From Zoogloea sp. (GTDB taxonomy: Bacteria; Pseudomonadota; Gammaproteobacteria; Burkholderiales; Rhodocyclaceae), in the NCBI RefSeq assembly GCF_017302315.1, contig NZ_JAFLDT010000016.1, positions 1-58,380 of the forward strand: 58,380 bases of DNA. Direction: 5' to 3'. This document shows, piece after piece, positions 41,929 through 49,744 of this stretch (the first letter of the stretch is position 1; every line of letters starts with the position of its first letter). Under the pieces are notes generated by a model. The model searched no databases, was not told the DNA's origin, and saw nothing but the letters and a program-made list of their open reading frames with translations. The position numbers and the translations under genes are program-made.

Positions 41929-43305
41929 TCAGCTTCCAGCGACGATCCGGTAACAGGGGTTGTAGACCTTGCCAGGCAGCTTCATGCGCCCCTGGGCCAC
42001 AAAGGACGCCATCAGCTCATCCATCGGCCCCATGATCTCGGGTTCGCCGGCAATCTCGAAGGGGCCGTGCTTCTCGATCTCACGGATGCCTTCATCCTTG
42101 ACGTTACCGGCCACCACCCCCGAAAAAGCACGGCGCAGGTTGGCCGCGAGCAAGTGGGTCGGCTGGCGACGGTGCAAGGTGAGATTGCGCATGCGCTCAT
42201 GGGTCGGCCGGAAGGGCTGCTGAAACTCGTGCTCGATCTTCAGCAGCCAGTTGAAGTAATACGCATCCCGCTGCTCCTTGCGGAAATCGCGCACCTGCAG
42301 GATGCCTGCCGTGATTTCCTGGGCCACCGCCTCGGGGTCATCAATGATGATCCTGTAGCGCTGGCGGGCCGCCTCGCCCAGGGTCTGGGCGATGAAGCGG
42401 TCGATGCGCAGAAAATACTCCTGGGCGCTGCGCGGGCCGGTGAACACCAGCGGGAAAGGCAGCCCTGCATTGTCCGGGTGGAGCAGGATGCCCAGGATGT
42501 AAAGGATCTCCTCCGCCGTGCCGACGCCCCCCGGAAAGACCACGATGCCATGGCCGGTGCGCACGAAGGCCTCAAGACGCTTCTCCACGTCCGGCAGGAT
42601 CACCAGCTCGTTCACCACCGGATTGGGCGCCTCCGCCGCAATGATGCCGGGCTCGGTGAAGCCCAGGTAGCGCCCGTTGTTGATGCGCTGGGTGGCGTGG
42701 GCCAGGGCGGCGCCTTTCATCGGGCCCTTCATGGCTCCCGGGCCGCAACCGGTGCACACGTTCAGGCCACGCAGGCCGAGTTGGTACCCCACCAGTTTGG
42801 TGTATTCGTACTCCTCCTGCTTGATCGAGTGGCCGCCCCAGCACACCACCACGTTGGGCTGGGTAATGGGTTGGAGCACATTGGCGTTACGCAGGATGTG
42901 AAAGACGGCGTCCGTCACCCCTTCCGAGGTAGAGTAGTCGAAGCGCGCGCTGCCGCTGATCTCGGTGCTGGCGTAAACAACATCGCGCAGTACGGCCACC
43001 AGATGTTCCTGGATGCCACGGATCATCTCCCCATCCACGAAGGCACTGGCCGGCGCACCGGTGATGTCGAGCTTGATGCCCCGCGCCCGCTGCTGGATCT
43101 GGATATCAAAGCTGTGATAACGCTCGAGCAACTCCTTGCCGTCATCAAGCTCGTTGCCGCAGTTGAGCACGGCCAGCGAACAGTTACGGTAAAGGGTACG
43201 AAGCCCGCCGCCGCTCTGATCGGAAAGCTTGGCCGCTTCGGCCCGGGACAGGACCTCCAGACGCCCTGTGGGGGAAACCTGTGCATCGACGATTTTATAG
43301 TCCAT
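41929..43305 (-). CDS. ppnN: Pyrimidine/purine nucleotide 5'-monophosphate nucleosidase
   Basis: A 458-residue PpnN (YgdH) protein, close to the E. coli length of 454. It hydrolyses nucleoside monophosphates to base and ribose phosphate and is activated by (p)ppGpp in E. coli. The LOG motif PGGVGTAEEILYILG is present, with GCGPGAMKGPMKGA binding the phosphate. The N-terminal domain starts LVSPTGRLEVLSRAEAAKL in type and the C-terminal domain has NLTLHRRQPTHLLAANLRRAFSGVVAGNVKDEG. The ATG at 43305 is the family start. The gene appears monocistronic. Confidence 0.95.
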   Translation of the reverse strand: MDYKIVDAQVSPTGRLEVLSRAEAAKLSDQSGGGLRTLYRNCSLAVLNCGNELDDGKELLERYHSFDIQIQQRARGIKLDITGAPASAFVDGEMIRGIQEHLVAVLRDVVYASTEISGSARFDYSTSEGVTDAVFHILRNANVLQPITQPNVVVCWGGHSIKQEEYEYTKLVGYQLGLRGLNVCTGCGPGAMKGPMKGAALAHATQRINNGRYLGFTEPGIIAAEAPNPVVNELVILPDVEKRLEAFVRTGHGIVVFPGGVGTAEEILYILGILLHPDNAGLPFPLVFTGPRSAQEYFLRIDRFIAQTLGEAARQRYRIIIDDPEAVAQEITAGILQVRDFRKEQRDAYYFNWLLKIEHEFQQPFRPTHERMRNLTLHRRQPTHLLAANLRRAFSGVVAGNVKDEGIREIEKHGPFEIAGEPEIMGPMDELMASFVAQGRMKLPGKVYNPCYRIVAGS

Positions 43306-43947
43306 GGTTGCAACTCTCTCTTGTCTGGTCCGCAAAAGGCAATAGAGCGGTGATTGCTGCCTACGCCAACCGTGCCGTACTGCCAACACCGGGCAACGCG
43401 GCATCAGCATAACGTCCGCGGCGTCGCGCGCCACTAAAAACGCGGGATTCTCCGGACATTATTGGGGTATCGCGCTCGTAACCGGCGGAAGTGCCAGGCC
43501 AATGGATCTTGTAACGCAATCCGGCCGGCCCGTAGCGCTTGGCGTCGGCCGGGTCGAAATCAGCGTGGTAACGATTCCTGACGACGGAATCGCTGAGCAG
43601 CGCTTGGGTCTCGGATTCCTCCGGATGTTAGTGCAGGCAACCCCGCACGCGGGCCGGGTGGATCTATCCTGCACCGGAACGGAGTGTCCCGACCCGGCAA
43701 TCTACCAGATGCGGAACATTGCCCCTACGCCAACGATAGACGACATCGCGGCGACGGCCCCCTTATCGGAGCTTAGGGCGGGTGTTGGCTGTCTCGGTGG
43801 CACCTGAACAGCCAGAACGCGAATAAGCGGGGACAGAAGTGTGCGTGACAGGGCAGTCGTTAAAGGCCGATTTTCACGGAAAGCATGTCTATGGGCACTA
43901 TCGACCCATCGACCGGCCGACGACGCGTTACACCAAGTTTGCAGGCT
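43306..43947. other. 642-base region with no intact gene
   Basis: It has the ppnN promoter side at the left and a decayed coding segment on the minus strand (43440-43770, listed separately). Near 43820-43850 the sequence GAATAAGCGGGGACAGAAG occurs, a form often met beside REP-associated transposases, hinting at a mobile-element scar. Open frames on the plus strand here are short and not recognised. Confidence 0.5.
43440..43770 (-). pseudogene. Decayed gene, possibly dTDP-4-dehydrorhamnose 3,5-epimerase (RmlC)-like
   Basis: In one minus-strand frame the translation reads DVVYRWRRGNVPHLVDC, then a TAG stop, then a short piece ending GCLH, a TAA stop, and then HPEESETQALLSDSVV, RYHADFDPADAKRYGP and GLRYKIHWPG. 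The order (D-V-hydrophobic, G-x-x-H, V-x-Y-x-x-x-F-x-P, then I-x-W-P) is that of RmlC-type cupins. Two in-frame stops and the missing N-terminus mean it cannot be functional. No rhamnose genes lie nearby. The assignment rests on short motifs and is uncertain. Confidence 0.3.
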
Positions 43948-45222
43948 TCAAGACCCCTCTCTCGCCCCACCGGTATGCACTAACGCATCCCACGTCCGTC
44001 GGAGACTCGCCATCAGCAGCGGCGAGCTGCGCTCCGGGTGGGTAGCGTAGATCGCCACCACGGTGGCGTGATCAAAGTCGATGTATAGACTCGTTCCGAA
44101 GGCACCAAGAATGGCTGTTCTGCGCCCCGCCCCCCCGGGGTGGACAAAGCGGTATTGCCAGCTACCGTCCTCCCCGAGACCTCGCCAGGGGGCCGGCAAG
44201 CCATGGGCAGACGAGCCGACGCCGGCGACAGTTTCGACGAACCAAGCAGGAACCAGCGAGTGTCTTCCCGGGCGTGCCCGAACCTCCAGCAGCCCCTGTC
44301 CGAGGGCGGCAAAGTCCCGCAGACTAAGGGCCAGACCATCCGCCAGAGGCGTACCTCGCCCATCGCTGGCCCAGAAGGCAGCATCCTGCGCCCGGATGCC
44401 GGACTGGAGTTCGCAAAGCAGCTGACTTGCGGGCTTCTTGGTGGTCTTCTCAGCCACCCACAACAAGAGCTCGTTTTCCGCTCCGGAGGGCGGATCGCTA
44501 ACGGGTAGTGTGCTGCGGGGCCAGGGGCTCCGGCCTGCCAGCCAGGCCCGGACACCAACGCTGCCACCGGGCACCCACCCCGCTTCCTTGCGCCATCGGG
44601 TCCGCTCCTCGTCAGTCCATTCAAACCCGGTCCGGCCATGCAGCAAGCGGGTAAGGGAGAGCTTGCCCAGCCCCTTGTTGCCGCCCAGTTCAGGGAGCAC
44701 TCGATCCATCGCCTTGCGCCGGTCCACCAAACCCTCAGCCGAGGCCTTGACCACCATCATTGCCAAGATGGGGTGAGTGGCCTCCAGGAGTAGCCGCGGA
44801 GCGCCAGGATCGAACCCGGTACGCCGATAGTCCAGCACTACCCTACCCCGTCTTAGAACCAGCACGCCGTCCGCATCGATACGGTTCTCAAGCACATACC
44901 GAAGACTGCGCGCAGCCCCGTCGGCGGGATCCTTGACCTGCATTCGGTCCATGTCGATCAGTCGGGCAGGCGATGTCCTGCGCTCGGTAGGCGTGGGGGG
45001 ATCGATCCAGCTTCCGGGCATGAAGCTGGCCGGATGGGCCAGCCCGAAGCGCAAGTTGCCCGGACGCAGCCAGTCCTCTGCGCCAACAACAGACTGCCCC
45101 TCCAGGGGCGGGGGCAAACTGCGCTGGATACGACAGGACGTCTCCGCTGCCAGCAGTGGAAGGGCTGCACACAAGACGCAGCCAGGAATAAAGCGGAGCA
45201 GGCTGGTAGCGAGATCAGTCAT
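43948..45222 (-). CDS. Serine-hydrolase/beta-lactamase-fold protein lacking the SxxK motif
   Basis: A 424-residue protein with signal peptide (LLRFIPGCVLCAALPLLAAE) and a class-C beta-lactamase/esterase-type domain. Fold markers are DGVLVLRRGRVVLDYR, VLPELGGNKGLGKLSLTRLLHG and the last strand pair FGTSLYIDFDHATVVAIYATHP. At the place of the nucleophile motif SATK the sequence is EATH (Glu147-His150), and the YxN site has no Tyr (PPSGAENELLLWV). It therefore probably does not hydrolyse beta-lactam-type substrates and may be a binding or scaffold protein. It is the last gene of the four-gene operon; its start overlaps the YbdK-like stop by 8 bases. Confidence 0.85.
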   Translation of the reverse strand: MTDLATSLLRFIPGCVLCAALPLLAAETSCRIQRSLPPPLEGQSVVGAEDWLRPGNLRFGLAHPASFMPGSWIDPPTPTERRTSPARLIDMDRMQVKDPADGAARSLRYVLENRIDADGVLVLRRGRVVLDYRRTGFDPGAPRLLLEATHPILAMMVVKASAEGLVDRRKAMDRVLPELGGNKGLGKLSLTRLLHGRTGFEWTDEERTRWRKEAGWVPGGSVGVRAWLAGRSPWPRSTLPVSDPPSGAENELLLWVAEKTTKKPASQLLCELQSGIRAQDAAFWASDGRGTPLADGLALSLRDFAALGQGLLEVRARPGRHSLVPAWFVETVAGVGSSAHGLPAPWRGLGEDGSWQYRFVHPGGAGRRTAILGAFGTSLYIDFDHATVVAIYATHPERSSPLLMASLRRTWDALVHTGGAREGS

Positions 45223-46363
45223 GGCGGTGATAGCGGGAGGGTTTGGCAAAGTGCTCGGAGGCCGCCCGGGTAAGCTCGTTCAGGCTGCCGACACTGCGGG
45301 CCAGCCCACGCAGCAGGCGGGCGTCGCTCTGCCGACTTTCGACCTGTCGGCGCAGGGCTTCGATCTGCCTGTTGCAGCCCAGATCCCGGGCATCCTCCAT
45401 CAGACTGTCCAGGAGCTCGGCGAGGGCCTTTGCGATGGGTCGTTTGCAGCGTGCCAGGGGGTCGGCAAGCTCGGCGTCGAAGCCAAAGCGGCAAGCCTGA
45501 AACTTGTTGTAGCGTGCAACCAGGCTCTGCAGCGGCGGATCGATGGGCGGGCGCTTGCGTAGCAACCAGCGGACCAGACTCTGGGCAAAGGCAGCCAGCT
45601 CAGTGGCCCGGTCCACCGTGAGGGGCGTGTCACAGACCCTAACCTCGACGGTGCCATACTCCGGCTTGGGCCGCACGTCCCAATACAGATCCTTGATGCT
45701 CTCGGCCACGCCGCAGGCCTGCAGCACCGCCATGTGCTCGAGGAAGGCCGCCCAGTCGCGCACGTCCGGCGCCTGCCCCGACAGGGGAAAGGCCGACACG
45801 GCGTTGAGCCGCGCCGAATCGAAGGCCGTATCCGCTCCATCCACATAGGGCGACGACGCGGACAGCACCACAAAGTGCGGGACGTACATGTTGAGGGCGT
45901 GGGTCAGCCAGATCGCTTCGTCCCCGGAGGTGACGCCGATGTGGATGTGCTGACCAAACACCGTGAACTGCTTGCTCAGGTATCCATAGCGCTCGTTGAG
46001 GAATGCAAAGCGCTCGCCCGGGCAGATCCGGCGTTCCGGCCAACGGTGGAAGGCGTGGGTGCCGCCTCCGCAGATGACCACGTTGTTGCGCCGACAATGC
46101 TCGACCAGCAGCTCTCGCAGCCCCTCCAGGTCGGTGGCGATGGCGGTCACGTCCTGTCGCGGATGGGTATTCACCTCAATCATGCTTTCGGTGATTTCCA
46201 GCTTCACATCTCCACAGCTGCCGTTGTGATGCAGGCTACCAAGCAGATCGGTGGCGGCCCGGGTCAGGTCGTAGTCCCGCGGCGAGACCAGTTGCAGTTC
46301 CAGCTCCACCCCCAGGGTGAGGGGCCGACTGGAGGCAAAGGGAAGGTTGGCGAAGGCGTTCAT
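45215..46363 (-). CDS. YbdK-type carboxylate-amine ligase (glutamate-cysteine ligase 2 family)
   Basis: A 382-residue GCS2-family protein. Family segments: LTLGVELELQLVSPRDYDL at the start, LEITESMIEVNTHPRQD, GGGTHAFHRWPERRI, FGQHIHIGVTSGDEAI, SARLNAVSAFPLSGQAPDV and YGTVEVRVCDTPLTV. E. coli YbdK (372 residues) shows weak gamma-glutamylcysteine synthesis in vitro; its physiological role is unknown. Genes on both sides are antiporters and a serine-hydrolase-fold protein; 4-base overlap with the upstream antiporter and 8-base overlap downstream indicate one transcript and coupled translation. The divergent neighbour at 48962 encodes a gamma-glutamyl-hydrolase-type amidotransferase. Confidence 0.92.
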   Translation of the reverse strand: MNAFANLPFASSRPLTLGVELELQLVSPRDYDLTRAATDLLGSLHHNGSCGDVKLEITESMIEVNTHPRQDVTAIATDLEGLRELLVEHCRRNNVVICGGGTHAFHRWPERRICPGERFAFLNERYGYLSKQFTVFGQHIHIGVTSGDEAIWLTHALNMYVPHFVVLSASSPYVDGADTAFDSARLNAVSAFPLSGQAPDVRDWAAFLEHMAVLQACGVAESIKDLYWDVRPKPEYGTVEVRVCDTPLTVDRATELAAFAQSLVRWLLRKRPPIDPPLQSLVARYNKFQACRFGFDAELADPLARCKRPIAKALAELLDSLMEDARDLGCNRQIEALRRQVESRQSDARLLRGLARSVGSLNELTRAASEHFAKPSRYHRHD

Positions 46364-47616
46364 GGAGGCGGCACACGGTTGGGAAGGGCTGCCTCGCCGC
46401 CCAGGACAAAGGCCCGGCGACATAGCTGCGGCCCGATGAACTCCATCAACGCCGCAGCCAGCAGGGGTAACAACAAAGCCTGGACGCTGACTTCGGGGTA
46501 GAAGGCTGCCAGCTCCGCGGCCATGAAAACGGCGGTTGCCGACAGGGGTTGCACGCCCAGGCCCAACAAACGGCGACGTTGCGCCGACAAGTCCTCCCGC
46601 CCGGTGGCCATCACTCCGATGAACTTGGCGAGCCCGCGCACAACCAGCAGTCCAATCGCCTGCAGGAGCATCAGCCCGGTAGCCTGACCGAGGGGCAACA
46701 TGGCACCGGTCACCACGAAGAGCACGATGGCCAGGATCCAGTGCCCCTGGGGCAGGCTGGTGTAGGCCAGAACCCGGTTCCGGTCGAGCTGCCCCACTGC
46801 CACCCCCATCAAGAACAGGCTCAGAAAGACCGGCACCGCCCCCATGCGGGCGAGCCCGATGGCCAGCAGGGCCGCTGCCACCAGCACAAAGACCTGACCA
46901 GCACCGCCCGTCTCCAAACGGGCCGCCAGCCCCAGCGCAAGACGCGCGCACAGCAAGGCGATCAACACGCCTCCGCCCAGCACCCAGATCGGGTGAATGA
47001 AAGCGTTGAGCCCGTCCCCCGATTCTTCAGCGTGGATCAGGCCCAGCACCAAGGCGAACACCACGAAGGCCAGGGCACAACTGATGGCCGTGAGCAACAG
47101 CGTGCGTTGCGTCACCTGCCCCTGGGCGCGGCACTCCTCGGCGGTCAGCAGCACCACCGCCGGAGCCGAGGTCATGGTGATGGCGGCGGTGGCCGCGCTC
47201 CACGCCGGGCTCAAACCCACAACCGCCAACGAGAAGACAAAAACGCCTGCAAAGGCCAGGCCTGATTCGGCCGCCGCGGTACGCAGCAGGCCCGGATTGG
47301 CCCGTAGCCAGCCCAGATCCAGGTTGCGCCCGGTTTCCAGCAGGAGCAAGCCCAGGGCTGCATCGGCCACCGGTCGCGCCAGGGCCAGCGTCTCGCCATC
47401 GAGCCAGTTCAGTGCCCCGGGCCCGGCAAGGGCCCCGGCCAGCACGTAGCCGACAATGCGCGACAGACCTGCCACACGGTACAGGCCTTCTCCCGCCAAC
47501 AGCCCCGCAACAAGCAACAAGGCCATCAGGGCCAACGGGTCGGCCTGTTCGGGCATGGGCGGGAGAAACATGAGTCTGTCCTGCAGAGACTCCCAGAAAG
47601 CGCGCACGCTGCTCAT
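46360..47616 (-). CDS. CPA2-type (Kef-like) cation:proton antiporter, second copy
   Basis: A 418-residue membrane protein of about 12 segments with the Na/H exchanger fold: YRVAGLSRIVGYVLAGALAGPGALNWL, ALGLLLLETGRNLDL, ITMTSAPAVVLLTAEE and LPQGHWILAIVLFVVTGAMLPLG. It ends with no TrkA-N or TrkA-C domain, unlike KefB/KefC. It overlaps its upstream partner by 4 bases and the YbdK-like gene by 4 bases. The two antiporters may form a heterodimer (inference). Confidence 0.9.
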   Translation of the reverse strand: MSSVRAFWESLQDRLMFLPPMPEQADPLALMALLLVAGLLAGEGLYRVAGLSRIVGYVLAGALAGPGALNWLDGETLALARPVADAALGLLLLETGRNLDLGWLRANPGLLRTAAAESGLAFAGVFVFSLAVVGLSPAWSAATAAITMTSAPAVVLLTAEECRAQGQVTQRTLLLTAISCALAFVVFALVLGLIHAEESGDGLNAFIHPIWVLGGGVLIALLCARLALGLAARLETGGAGQVFVLVAAALLAIGLARMGAVPVFLSLFLMGVAVGQLDRNRVLAYTSLPQGHWILAIVLFVVTGAMLPLGQATGLMLLQAIGLLVVRGLAKFIGVMATGREDLSAQRRRLLGLGVQPLSATAVFMAAELAAFYPEVSVQALLLPLLAAALMEFIGPQLCRRAFVLGGEAALPNRVPPP

Positions 47617-48842
47617 CGGCGGATCAACCCCCTGCCCACGCCCAGTCTTGGCACGTAACGACGGGCCTCACCAAAGCCGCGTATCGCCGCCTGGGTGCAT
47701 AAGGGCCCGAGTAGCTGCATCAGGGCTATCGCCCCCAGCAGAGTGCCGCTCAGCACTGGCCCGATCCCGCCATCGAGGGCACCAGCGTCCCCCAACAGTA
47801 CGAGGGCAACACTGGACATGGGCAGAAGCCCCACGGCGGTCCAGGCCGCCTCCCGACGGGGCAGCCCGAAGGTCGGGCCTGCCAGCTGCAGGGCCAGCCC
47901 CCGGGCGAGGAAGCGCGTCAGCACAAACGCTAGCACCGTTGACCAATGGGTCCGCAGGAAGGCCAGATCAAGCGCCGCACCCGCCAGCACGAAGGTCACC
48001 ACCAGAAAGACCCGAGCGTCTGACGCGATGCGGATGGCCACCACCTCCCGCGCCCGATCCAGCACGCGCACCCCCACCCCAAAGGCCAGCAGGCTCATCA
48101 GCGGCGACATCTCGACACTCAGGGGCACGCCGGTCCCCACAACAATCAAGCCGAGCAGCATCAGGTGTTGATGCTCGACTTGCGGCCCCAGCCAGCGCGC
48201 CCCCTGGCGCGCGGCAAAGGCCAGCCCTGCTCCGAGCACGACCGACAAGCCGATACTGGCTACCGCATGCCCGTAGCCGGGCATGGCCTCCGTTGCCCCA
48301 CTCTCTGCCAGCGAAGGCAGGATCAGATCAATGGCCGCAAAGGCAAGGCAACCGTTCAAGGCCACCAGCCCGAACAGGCGACTGGTCAGCGGCCCATCCC
48401 CACCCACGTCACTACTGGTTGCAATGGTGATCGCCGGTGAAGTGGAGACCGCGATGGCTGCGGCAAAAGCGCCTCCCGCAGCGCCGAAGCCCAGACCGAT
48501 CATGACGAGCATTACCAAGACAAAGACGACCGCCGATTCGATCAAGCCCAGGGCGATCAGCTGCGGATCCAGCCGCCCGCCTTCAAACGGAACCCGCTGC
48601 CCGAGCTCGAAGAGGATCAGACCCAGGGCGGGATATATGAAGAACTGGGCAGAACCCAACACGTAGGGATCAATCCATCCCAGCCCGCTCTGGCCCAGCA
48701 CGAGGCCACACAGTACATAGCCCGTGGTTCGGGGCAGATTTAACAGGCGCCGACTCAGTTCGCCACTGGTCAGCCCGCCCAGCAGGCAAAGGCCGAACAG
48801 CAGCAAGGGCGAAAGCACGAGATCCTCAAAGATGGGGGACAT
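47613..48842 (-). CDS. CPA2-type (Kef-like) cation:proton antiporter, first copy
   Basis: A 409-residue exchanger with segments LLNLPRTTGYVLCGLVLGQSGLGW, ALGLILFELGQRVPF, FAAAIAVSTSPAITIATSSD and a late PMSSVALVLLGDAG. It is similar in layout to the next gene but only moderately so in sequence, pointing to an old duplication or a pair that assembles together. There is no nucleotide-binding TrkA domain. It is the first gene of the operon; the ATG at 48842 has only a weak ribosome site, and the region upstream is AT-rich with a 9-bp palindrome. Confidence 0.9.
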   Translation of the reverse strand: MSPIFEDLVLSPLLLFGLCLLGGLTSGELSRRLLNLPRTTGYVLCGLVLGQSGLGWIDPYVLGSAQFFIYPALGLILFELGQRVPFEGGRLDPQLIALGLIESAVVFVLVMLVMIGLGFGAAGGAFAAAIAVSTSPAITIATSSDVGGDGPLTSRLFGLVALNGCLAFAAIDLILPSLAESGATEAMPGYGHAVASIGLSVVLGAGLAFAARQGARWLGPQVEHQHLMLLGLIVVGTGVPLSVEMSPLMSLLAFGVGVRVLDRAREVVAIRIASDARVFLVVTFVLAGAALDLAFLRTHWSTVLAFVLTRFLARGLALQLAGPTFGLPRREAAWTAVGLLPMSSVALVLLGDAGALDGGIGPVLSGTLLGAIALMQLLGPLCTQAAIRGFGEARRYVPRLGVGRGLIRR

Positions 48843-48849
48843 GGAAGAT

Positions 48850-48879
48850 TTGGCTTAATTATATTTGTATCAATATAAT
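48850..48879 (+). promoter_or_regulatory. Promoter of the 48962 gene
   Basis: TTGGCT (48850-48855), 18-base spacer and TATAAT (48874-48879) on the plus strand, upstream of the amidotransferase gene. It overlaps the palindrome at 48857-48880. Confidence 0.5.
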
Positions 48880-48880
48880 T
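48857..48880. promoter_or_regulatory. Palindromic operator-like site AATTATATT-N6-AATATAATT
   Basis: 9-bp perfect arms 48857-48865 and 48872-48880 around TGTATC. It is the only strongly AT-rich stretch between the divergent antiporter operon and the amidotransferase gene, and covers the -10 of the plus-strand promoter, so a repressor bound here could control both directions. No regulator gene is adjacent. Confidence 0.45.
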
Positions 48881-48961
48881 TAAAGCAATACATAAAGGCA
48901 AGACGAGGGCTGCGGTGCTTTCCCGTGCCCCCTCTTTCCCAACCCCGACGACGGAGGCGCC

Positions 48962-49744
48962 ATGAGCAGAACCAAGACCATTCGCATCGGCCTGTCGGCC
49001 CGTCTGTTTCACCCCCGTGACGGCGCCGTCGGCATCGAGTCCAAGACCCTTCAGGTTCTCGAACAGTCCATCGCCCAGTGGGTCATGGCCCGGGACGTGA
49101 TGGTGCTGATGGTGCCCTCCATCCTTAAGGACGGGCCCATTCACCGCAGCAACATCCGCCTGCGGGATTACGCCGGCTTTCTGGACGGGCTGGTGCTCCA
49201 GGGCGGCGCCGACGTGAGCCCTGAAGCCTACGGCGAAGCCCCGCTGCGCGAAGAATGGGCCGGTGACCGGGTGCGGGACGCCTACGAGATGGAGCTGCTC
49301 CACGAGTTCGTAGAGGCCGGCAAGCCGGTCCTGGGGATCTGCCGAGGCATGCAGCTCATCAATGTGGCCTTTGGCGGATCGCTCTACCAGGACATTCCCA
49401 GTCAGTTCGTCGACGCAGCCCGCCATGAGGCGGATGCCTACGACCGCCATAGCCACCCGGTACACTTCGCCGAACGGGGGCGCTTTGCCCACTGGTTTGG
49501 TTCTGCTGAGGGTGGTCAGGTGGTGTCCATCCATCACCAGTGCGTGCGCAGTCTGGGCCGGGACATGGTGGTTGAAGGGCTGTCCCGCGATGACGGAATA
49601 ATCGAGGCGATTCGCCACACCAGCCATCCGTTTGTGGTGGGTGTGCAGTGGCATCCGGAGTTTCACACCCCGGGGCGGAACACGTTGCTGGACTGTACGC
49701 CCCTGCTGGAGGCATTCCTAAGTGCTGCGCGGCTATGCCGCTGA
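48962..49744 (+). CDS. Class-I glutamine amidotransferase-like gamma-glutamyl hydrolase (peptidase C26)
   Basis: A 260-residue cytoplasmic protein of the PuuD type. The nucleophile is the Cys in GICRGMQLINVAFGGSLYQDI; the His-Glu pair is in GVQWHPEFH; the region DGLVLQGGADVSPEAYGE binds the substrate backbone. E. coli PuuD hydrolyses gamma-glutamyl-GABA; this one's substrate is unknown. It lies divergent from the antiporter/YbdK operon, so a gamma-glutamyl ligase and a gamma-glutamyl hydrolase flank one control region. GGAGG precedes the ATG. Confidence 0.92.
   Translation: MSRTKTIRIGLSARLFHPRDGAVGIESKTLQVLEQSIAQWVMARDVMVLMVPSILKDGPIHRSNIRLRDYAGFLDGLVLQGGADVSPEAYGEAPLREEWAGDRVRDAYEMELLHEFVEAGKPVLGICRGMQLINVAFGGSLYQDIPSQFVDAARHEADAYDRHSHPVHFAERGRFAHWFGSAEGGQVVSIHHQCVRSLGRDMVVEGLSRDDGIIEAIRHTSHPFVVGVQWHPEFHTPGRNTLLDCTPLLEAFLSAARLCR

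Follow-up and report, generated by a model that had tools for sequence, protein, structure and literature searches.

We report a conserved gene set, located in a stretch of 58,380 nucleotides (positions 1 to 58,380 of contig NZ_JAFLDT010000016.1 of Zoogloea sp.; the whole stretch is referred to below as the window), that encodes two membrane proteins of the CPA2 (cation/proton antiporter 2) fold, here called CPAa and CPAb, a predicted YbdK-type GCS2 carboxylate-amine ligase, a protein with a serine-hydrolase fold and, divergently, a predicted gamma-glutamyl hydrolase of the peptidase C26 family. The gene set is no accident of one genome: the linkage between the ligase and a CPA gene was gained once and has been kept in a clade of 65 ligases. 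This conservation suggests a system of transport or signalling not described so far, and a literature search, to which subscription papers were largely closed, yielded no description of the set. Our preferred, still tentative, explanation is a MarR-controlled gamma-glutamyl cycle around a CPA2-fold membrane protein that lacks the cation-binding aspartate and would carry a gamma-glutamyl anion.

Linkage of the ligase to CPA genes

The ligase scores 483.9 bits against the curated cut-off of 425 for the YbdK family (NF010040), and its best match among solved structures is YbdK itself (1r8g, E 2.5e-96). The GVELE motif near its N terminus fits the GhExE metal/ATP signature as given in the accessible text of PMC2588565.

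Relatives of the ligase were collected in four sets. The relatives set covers 149 genomes, with a match in 62 and 40 of 70 matching rows fetched. The phylum set covers 397 genomes, with the ligase in 114 and 60 of 124 rows fetched, comprising all rows of at least 44% identity except the window itself and G137 (counted already as L069). The order set consists of 300 genomes, 85 of which have the ligase at E 1e-60, and the named set holds the best 80 of at least 577 ligase relatives. At least 17 of these 80 loci are on contigs shared with other fetched loci, so the named set cannot be treated as independent of the others.

A CPA gene at most 400 bp from the ligase was counted as its neighbour. 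At ligase identities of at least 55%, such a neighbour is present at all 20 loci of the relatives set and all 67 of the named set. Between 42 and 55% identity, the respective values are 19/20 (the exception being L070) and 12/13 (in the exception, L142, a CPA match lies upstream, within 6 kb of the ligase), and 22/24 for the phylum set, where both exceptions belong to family f57. Below 36% identity, 1 of 30 phylum-set ligases has a CPA neighbour. On the tree of 104 ligase rows this trait changes twice. The first change is a single clade of 65 rows, the window included, with a neighbour in 65/65 (SH-aLRT branch support 90, under the program's mark of 95). The second is L201 alone, an independent pairing in which the CPA, encoded upstream of a distant GCS2 protein, has a genuine DD pair (28% identity of the GCS2 protein; L201:5850-8506).

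An earlier note, made from the sequence of the window alone, had proposed a check for conserved co-occurrence beyond this genome; for the ligase and CPA pair, the counts above demonstrate that it is deep. The tandem CPA pair, also part of that check, is less constant, the second CPA being optional (34 second versus 141 adjacent CPAs, in sets that include duplicate genomes). Since it is missing in many relatives, we gave up the view that one CPA requires the other.

To our knowledge, the natural product of YbdK, a widely annotated enzyme, is unsettled, and a CPA partner kept in every sampled member of the clade provides a direct handle on this question.

Gene organization

The four minus-strand genes follow one another in the order CPAa, CPAb, ligase, serine-hydrolase-fold gene, with overlaps of 4, 4, and 8 bases. 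The C26 gene is separated from the divergent CPAa gene by a gap of 119 bp, inside which the palindrome is situated (Table 1). The overlapping four-gene run and the folds of its products had been read correctly in the earlier note, as had the gamma-glutamyl-hydrolase-type gene diverging from it across a palindrome, which proved to be perfect. A role in anti-phage defence was considered but found no support, as none of the five proteins matched a PADLOC model at E 0.001.

Table 1. Features of the locus, in coordinates of the window
Feature	Position	Strand	Basis
Predicted gamma-glutamyl hydrolase, peptidase C26 / class-I glutamine-amidotransferase fold	48962..49744	+	Pfam 182.9 bits; ICRGMQ Cys, WHPE His/Glu
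Perfect palindrome (putative MarR operator) between the divergent genes, in the promoter region; 8-bp arms, 6-bp spacer	48858..48879	.	Palindrome scan, half-site matches
CPAa, the second protein of CPA2 fold, lacking an RCK domain; LNG replaces the acidic pair	47613..48842	-	PF00999 only; alignment with KefC
CPAb, core CPA2-fold protein; ISC replaces the acidic pair; E94 and K331 nearly invariant	46360..47616	-	PF00999; model; residue counts
Predicted YbdK-type GCS2 carboxylate-amine (gamma-glutamyl) ligase	45215..46363	-	NF010040; YbdK 1r8g; GVELE
NylB-like serine-hydrolase fold, SxxK lost (pseudoenzyme); signal-peptide-like N terminus by eye	43948..45222	-	Profile, model, residue counts

CPA-fold proteins

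The two CPA proteins (409 and 418 aa) match PF00999 with 69.7 and 55.7 bits at a cut-off of 26.2. The domain search found nothing else in them, neither a C-terminal RCK/TrkA_N domain nor a soluble ligand-binding domain. The structure model of CPAb (pLDDT, the predicted local distance difference test score, 90.5) has the NapA/KefC fold with both broken core helices kept. The evidence for the fold rests on this model, as sequence searches of the PDB gave no match for CPAb, CPAa, or the CPAb profile at E thresholds of 1, 1, and 0.1, respectively.

Alignment with KefC places the ISC and LNG triplets at the site in the helix of KefC D156. In the accessible text of PMC11150392 this aspartate is called strictly conserved, and the D156N variant had no K+ density and a reduced K+-induced current. 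An acidic residue within five columns of D156 is absent from 138 of the 140 adjacent CPAs readable there and from 32 of the 34 second CPAs; the sets behind these and the following residue counts include duplicate genomes. Any acidic residue within five columns was asked for because the MAFFT alignment of all CPAs is one column off at this site. Away from the misaligned site, the same alignment has lysine in the column of KefC K307 in 134/141 adjacent CPAs. In transmembrane helix 2 (TM2), glutamate or aspartate occurs in 136/141 adjacent CPAs at a position where KefC has isoleucine. An hhalign comparison with KefC (93% probability) was not used, its path through the D156 helix looking unsound.

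Thus, of the "two CPA2 antiporters without TrkA domains" suggested earlier, the CPA2 fold and the absence of RCK/TrkA domains stand, but the term antiporter overstates the case, since the ion-binding aspartate is gone in both proteins. Consequently, neither cation/proton antiport nor its gating can be assumed. The annotation of this CPA subgroup as antiporters is probably misleading, as its members match the Pfam family and yet are devoid of a residue needed for antiport. We also considered, and rejected, the possibility that the ligase had caused the aspartate loss: L217–L220 contain CPA homologues without either the aspartate or a ligase, and hence aspartate loss is not confined to CPAs linked to the ligase. 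At one of these loci (L217:5156-8302), a MarR gene is followed in the row by two CPA genes, the products of which are Asp-less (NN) and of the DD type, respectively, and no ligase match was found in the stretch.

C26 hydrolase

The C26 protein matches PF07722, and its putative catalytic cysteine (in ICRGMQ) and histidine and glutamate (in WHPE) align with those of solved members. The best of these is Lin1909 (3fij); other top matches are a probable glutamine amidotransferase (7d4r), which we take to be SpuA of the spermidine pathway, and PuuD (6vtv). The cut-off of the PuuD equivalog NF008471 is missed (81.7 versus 266 bits).

Three arrangements of the C26 gene were observed: divergent in Zoogloea, before CPAb or between the CPA genes in Dechloromonas and Accumulibacter, and downstream of the ligase in the wider clade. 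Counting C26 genes within 4.5 kb of the ligase, we found one at 17/20 loci of the relatives set and 60/67 of the named set at ligase identities of at least 55%. At 42–55%, the proportions are 9/20 and 4/13, respectively, and 2/24 in the phylum set, in which none of the six ligases at 36–42% and none of the 30 below 36% has a C26 gene in proximity. In the proposed co-occurrence check this gene therefore recurs, in three arrangements, but is less constant than the CPA–ligase pair, and its proximity changes 11 times on the 104-row tree.

In the order set, C26 homologues were identified at E 1e-60 in 43 of 300 genomes, at 44 places. Both C26 and the ligase occur in 38 genomes, C26 only in 5, the ligase only in 47, and neither in 210; chance would give 12 genomes with both versus the 38 observed (Fisher p 3e-19, kinship ignored). 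In the phylum sample, within the family and order of the window, C26 at 44% identity or more is present in 16/22 genomes with the ligase versus 0/17 others. Outside the order a single genome, G479, has it, at 54% identity; its locus L242 combines C26 with a distant GCS2 gene and shows no CPA match within 2.5 kb.

Fourteen of the 44 order-set places are at a CPA and GCS locus, and four are adjacent to a Kef-type CPA gene without GCS. A separate tally over L229–L277 gave neither gene at 31 loci, both at 7, CPA only at 5, and GCS only at 1; L248, which duplicates the linked locus of G017, is counted in it, and five loci of this range hold no C26. At L229:2695-6609 and L230:3275-6811, a C26 homologue lies immediately 3' of a Kef-type CPA gene whose product keeps the aspartate (VED, as read in L229; L230 is alike by score). 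A P-II gene is located upstream at L229. At L232:3303-7009 and L253, the C26 homologue diverges from a KefC-like gene, with 398 bits to E. coli KefC for L232 and, for L253, 380 bits to the top-scoring one among five CPA queries. As two of the four places are in one family and two in another, they amount to about two events. At a guessed background of 2%, two of 30 gives p 0.12 and four of 30 gives p 0.003, and on these grounds the link of C26 to Kef-type antiporters is suggestive only. Apart from these four places, no nameable common partner was found at the unlinked C26 loci. At L243:5926-10422 the homologue is situated, as judged by eye, among genes for a phosphoenolpyruvate-utiliser-like protein, a methyltransferase, and a nucleotidyltransferase, a neighbourhood that presumably resembles the CDP-amidate cluster of Campylobacter.

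NylB-like protein

Both the profile and the structure model of the fourth minus-strand product match NylB-type 6-aminohexanoate-dimer hydrolases, the fold match of the model spanning nearly the whole protein. The lysine of the SxxK motif is replaced in 45/45 sequences (by arginine in 41 and histidine in 4), and the serine is kept in 3/45. One cysteine, C271, is invariant, and another, C31, is present in at least 90% of rows (reference numbering). These features, along with an N terminus that resembles a signal peptide by eye, are consistent with an exported pseudoenzyme.

The gene was found only in the band of at least 55% ligase identity, at 16/20 loci of the relatives set and 51/67 of the named set, contig ends being counted as misses. 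Its carriers are Zoogloea, Dechloromonas, Accumulibacter, and their kin. Thus, the hydrolase included in the proposed co-occurrence check does have a serine-hydrolase fold, but its catalytic motif is lost and its occurrence is limited to a part of the clade.

Palindrome and MarR regulator

The 20-mer core of the palindrome has exactly one exact occurrence in the genome; with up to two mismatches, the palindrome is no rarer than its reversed control. The 14-mer TATCAATATAATTT, allowing one mismatch, occurs at two genome places only, 48868-48881 in the palindrome region of the window and C77:4029-4042, and its reversed control at none. The second place shortly precedes a MarR gene that is not linked to the locus (C77:4057-4551), the single orthologue (78%) in this genome of the MarR protein of the relatives. 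A MarR-family match lies within 6 kb of the locus, often divergently, at 12/20 loci of the relatives set and 35/67 of the named set in the close identity band.

The comparison of operators across genomes covered G000 and G006 (positive) and G017 (negative). In G006, the locus and MarR regions share CCAATATAATTT, an altered version being present in both, and none of 200 shuffles gave a match as long; in G017, there was no such match between the two regions (37/200 shuffles). When 46 gaps were scanned for palindromes, no one motif was shared by all of them.

Proposed function and alternatives

The ligase is always encoded beside a CPA in the clade, and a hydrolase predicted to undo its reaction recurs with it; together these suggest a gamma-glutamyl compound that is handled or sensed by the membrane protein. 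Also in favour, each pair of the three components occurs without the third: Kef-type CPA with C26 (L229, L230, L232, L253), GCS2 with C26 (L242), and DD-type CPA with GCS2 (L201). With the cation-binding aspartate gone and a lysine kept in CPAb, we favour the compound being an anion that is carried. In the proposed cycle, YbdK would join the gamma-carboxyl group of glutamate to an amine. CPAb would bind the resulting gamma-glutamyl anion and either carry it across the inner membrane or exchange it there; in place of the cation site (the aspartate of KefC D156) it would have a site with an unpaired conserved lysine in the helix of KefC K307. The C26 enzyme would cleave the compound when there is no need for it, the NylB-like protein in the periplasm may bind it or a related amide without cutting, and MarR may regulate the locus via the shared half-site. 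The computation shows the layout of the genes, the CPA fold, the single gain and retention of the CPA–ligase linkage, the recurrence of C26, the losses of the aspartate and of SxxK, and the half-site in common with the MarR gene; from these we infer the compound, transport over gating, anion binding, the roles of CPAa and the periplasmic protein, and MarR regulation.

Several observations weigh against this cycle. Lysine as the anion site is only a candidate, suggested by residue conservation, and the second CPAs differ in the K307 column (Gln in 21, Arg in 11, and His in 2 of 34). Asp-less CPA homologues exist without a ligase, as described above. YbdK-like ligases, in turn, exist without a CPA neighbour: it is absent from all six phylum-set ligases at 36–42% identity and from the two f57 ligases at 44–45%. 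Further, 47 of the 85 ligase genomes of the order have no C26 at the threshold used, and 26 of the 44 C26 places have no CPA or GCS within the 2.5 kb examined, although at one of these, L255, a ligase is about 3.1 kb away. Finally, the location of C26 genes beside Kef-type antiporters suits ligand gating equally well.

Ligand gating, the inference of the earlier note, would have the CPAs still moving cations and protons. YbdK would produce, and C26 remove, a gamma-glutamyl compound that opens or closes them, taking over from the RCK/glutathione domain. It remains a strong rival because the same C26 family adjoins Kef-type genes, both KefC-like (L232, L253) and Asp-keeping (L229 and, by score, L230). 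Glutathione acts on KefC through its RCK domain (accessible text of PMC11150392), a domain absent from CPAa and CPAb, and the conserved acidic residue of TM2 might stand in for the lost aspartate. On the other hand, the aspartate needed for ion binding is gone, the CPA proteins yielded no soluble ligand-binding domain, and the Kef-type places come down to about two events at p 0.12. We regard gating as somewhat unlikely; a carrier of the gamma-glutamyl compound fits the altered CPA site at least as well as a replacement of the gating domain.

A broader version of the carrier proposal, which we consider doubtful but marginally more plausible than gating, takes in both kinds of CPA2 protein. The Asp-less CPAs would form a new class of CPA-fold transporters without cation/proton antiport, carrying gamma-glutamyl compounds and permanently encoded with their ligase, while C26 would act on the same compound and elsewhere control true Kef antiporters, so that one metabolite would link both kinds.

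Detoxification or storage of an amine is a less likely purpose. Here YbdK would cap a toxic or surplus polyamine-like amine, C26 would free it, and the carrier would export the conjugate, in a Puu-like cycle without oxidation. The solved relatives of the C26 protein include PuuD and 7d4r, the NylB-like pseudoenzyme is similar to enzymes whose substrates are omega-amino-acid amides, and the control is possibly of the MarR type. However, the best solved match is Lin1909, the PuuD cut-off is missed, and no oxidase or importer is prominent in 53 wider-clade loci, where CPA, GCS, and C26 (14 loci) are followed, as the next family that looks genuine, by an ApaG-like one (by eye) recurring in seven loci of a single bacterial family.

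Less probable again is that the Asp-less CPAs are non-transporting membrane sensors or scaffolds for the ligase that localise or regulate gamma-glutamylation at the membrane. The loss of the transport aspartate in nearly all members and the CPA-then-ligase order of overlapping or closely spaced genes would suit such a role. Against it, the strongly conserved lysine and TM2 glutamate of CPAb and the two broken helices kept in the model argue for retained transport, and ligase-free homologues persist. That these are housekeeping neighbours kept by descent without joint function, as one gain explaining all 65 linked rows and the unlinked C26 genes of many genomes would allow, seems improbable given that the C26 gene shifts position while its link recurs, that C26 and ligase co-occur even when unlinked, and that independent pairings exist (L201, L229/L230, L232/L253, L242).

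Comparison with known systems

The locus differs from E. coli KefC, a glutathione-gated K+/H+ efflux system, in that its CPAs have neither an RCK domain nor an equivalent of D156. The Puu and Spu pathways combine a gamma-glutamyl-forming enzyme with a C26 hydrolase. The locus likewise pairs a predicted gamma-glutamyl-forming enzyme with C26, but the ligase is of the GCS2/YbdK type, the C26 score falls far short of the PuuD cut-off, and no recurring oxidase or permease was seen. Its ligase belongs to the same equivalog family as E. coli YbdK, whereas seven YbdK-like f57 ligases (presumed enterobacterial, 40–45% identity) have no CPA neighbour. The serine-hydrolase-fold protein shares the fold of NylB but has lost the SxxK lysine. 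Another amidoligase family has been described beside glutamine-amidotransferase-like thiol peptidases (PMC2588565). That arrangement is similar in placing a gamma-carboxylate ligase beside a class-I glutamine-amidotransferase-like peptidase and different in the ligase family, and antiporters are unmentioned in the accessible text of that paper.

If the proposed cycle is true, it adds a gamma-glutamyl metabolite and gives one of the most thoroughly studied transporter folds a new use, and the system is testable in culturable bacteria, e.g., Zoogloea and Dechloromonas.

Two minor observations concern the surroundings of the locus. The neighbouring gene at 41929-43434 of the window encodes a PpnN-type nucleotide nucleosidase and is probably unrelated. 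Small OmpA-like proteins recur at the locus edge in several relatives (L038:10391-11026, L048:2935-3495); of these two, both tested against the Pfam OmpA cut-off, the L038 protein falls just below it and the L048 protein passes.

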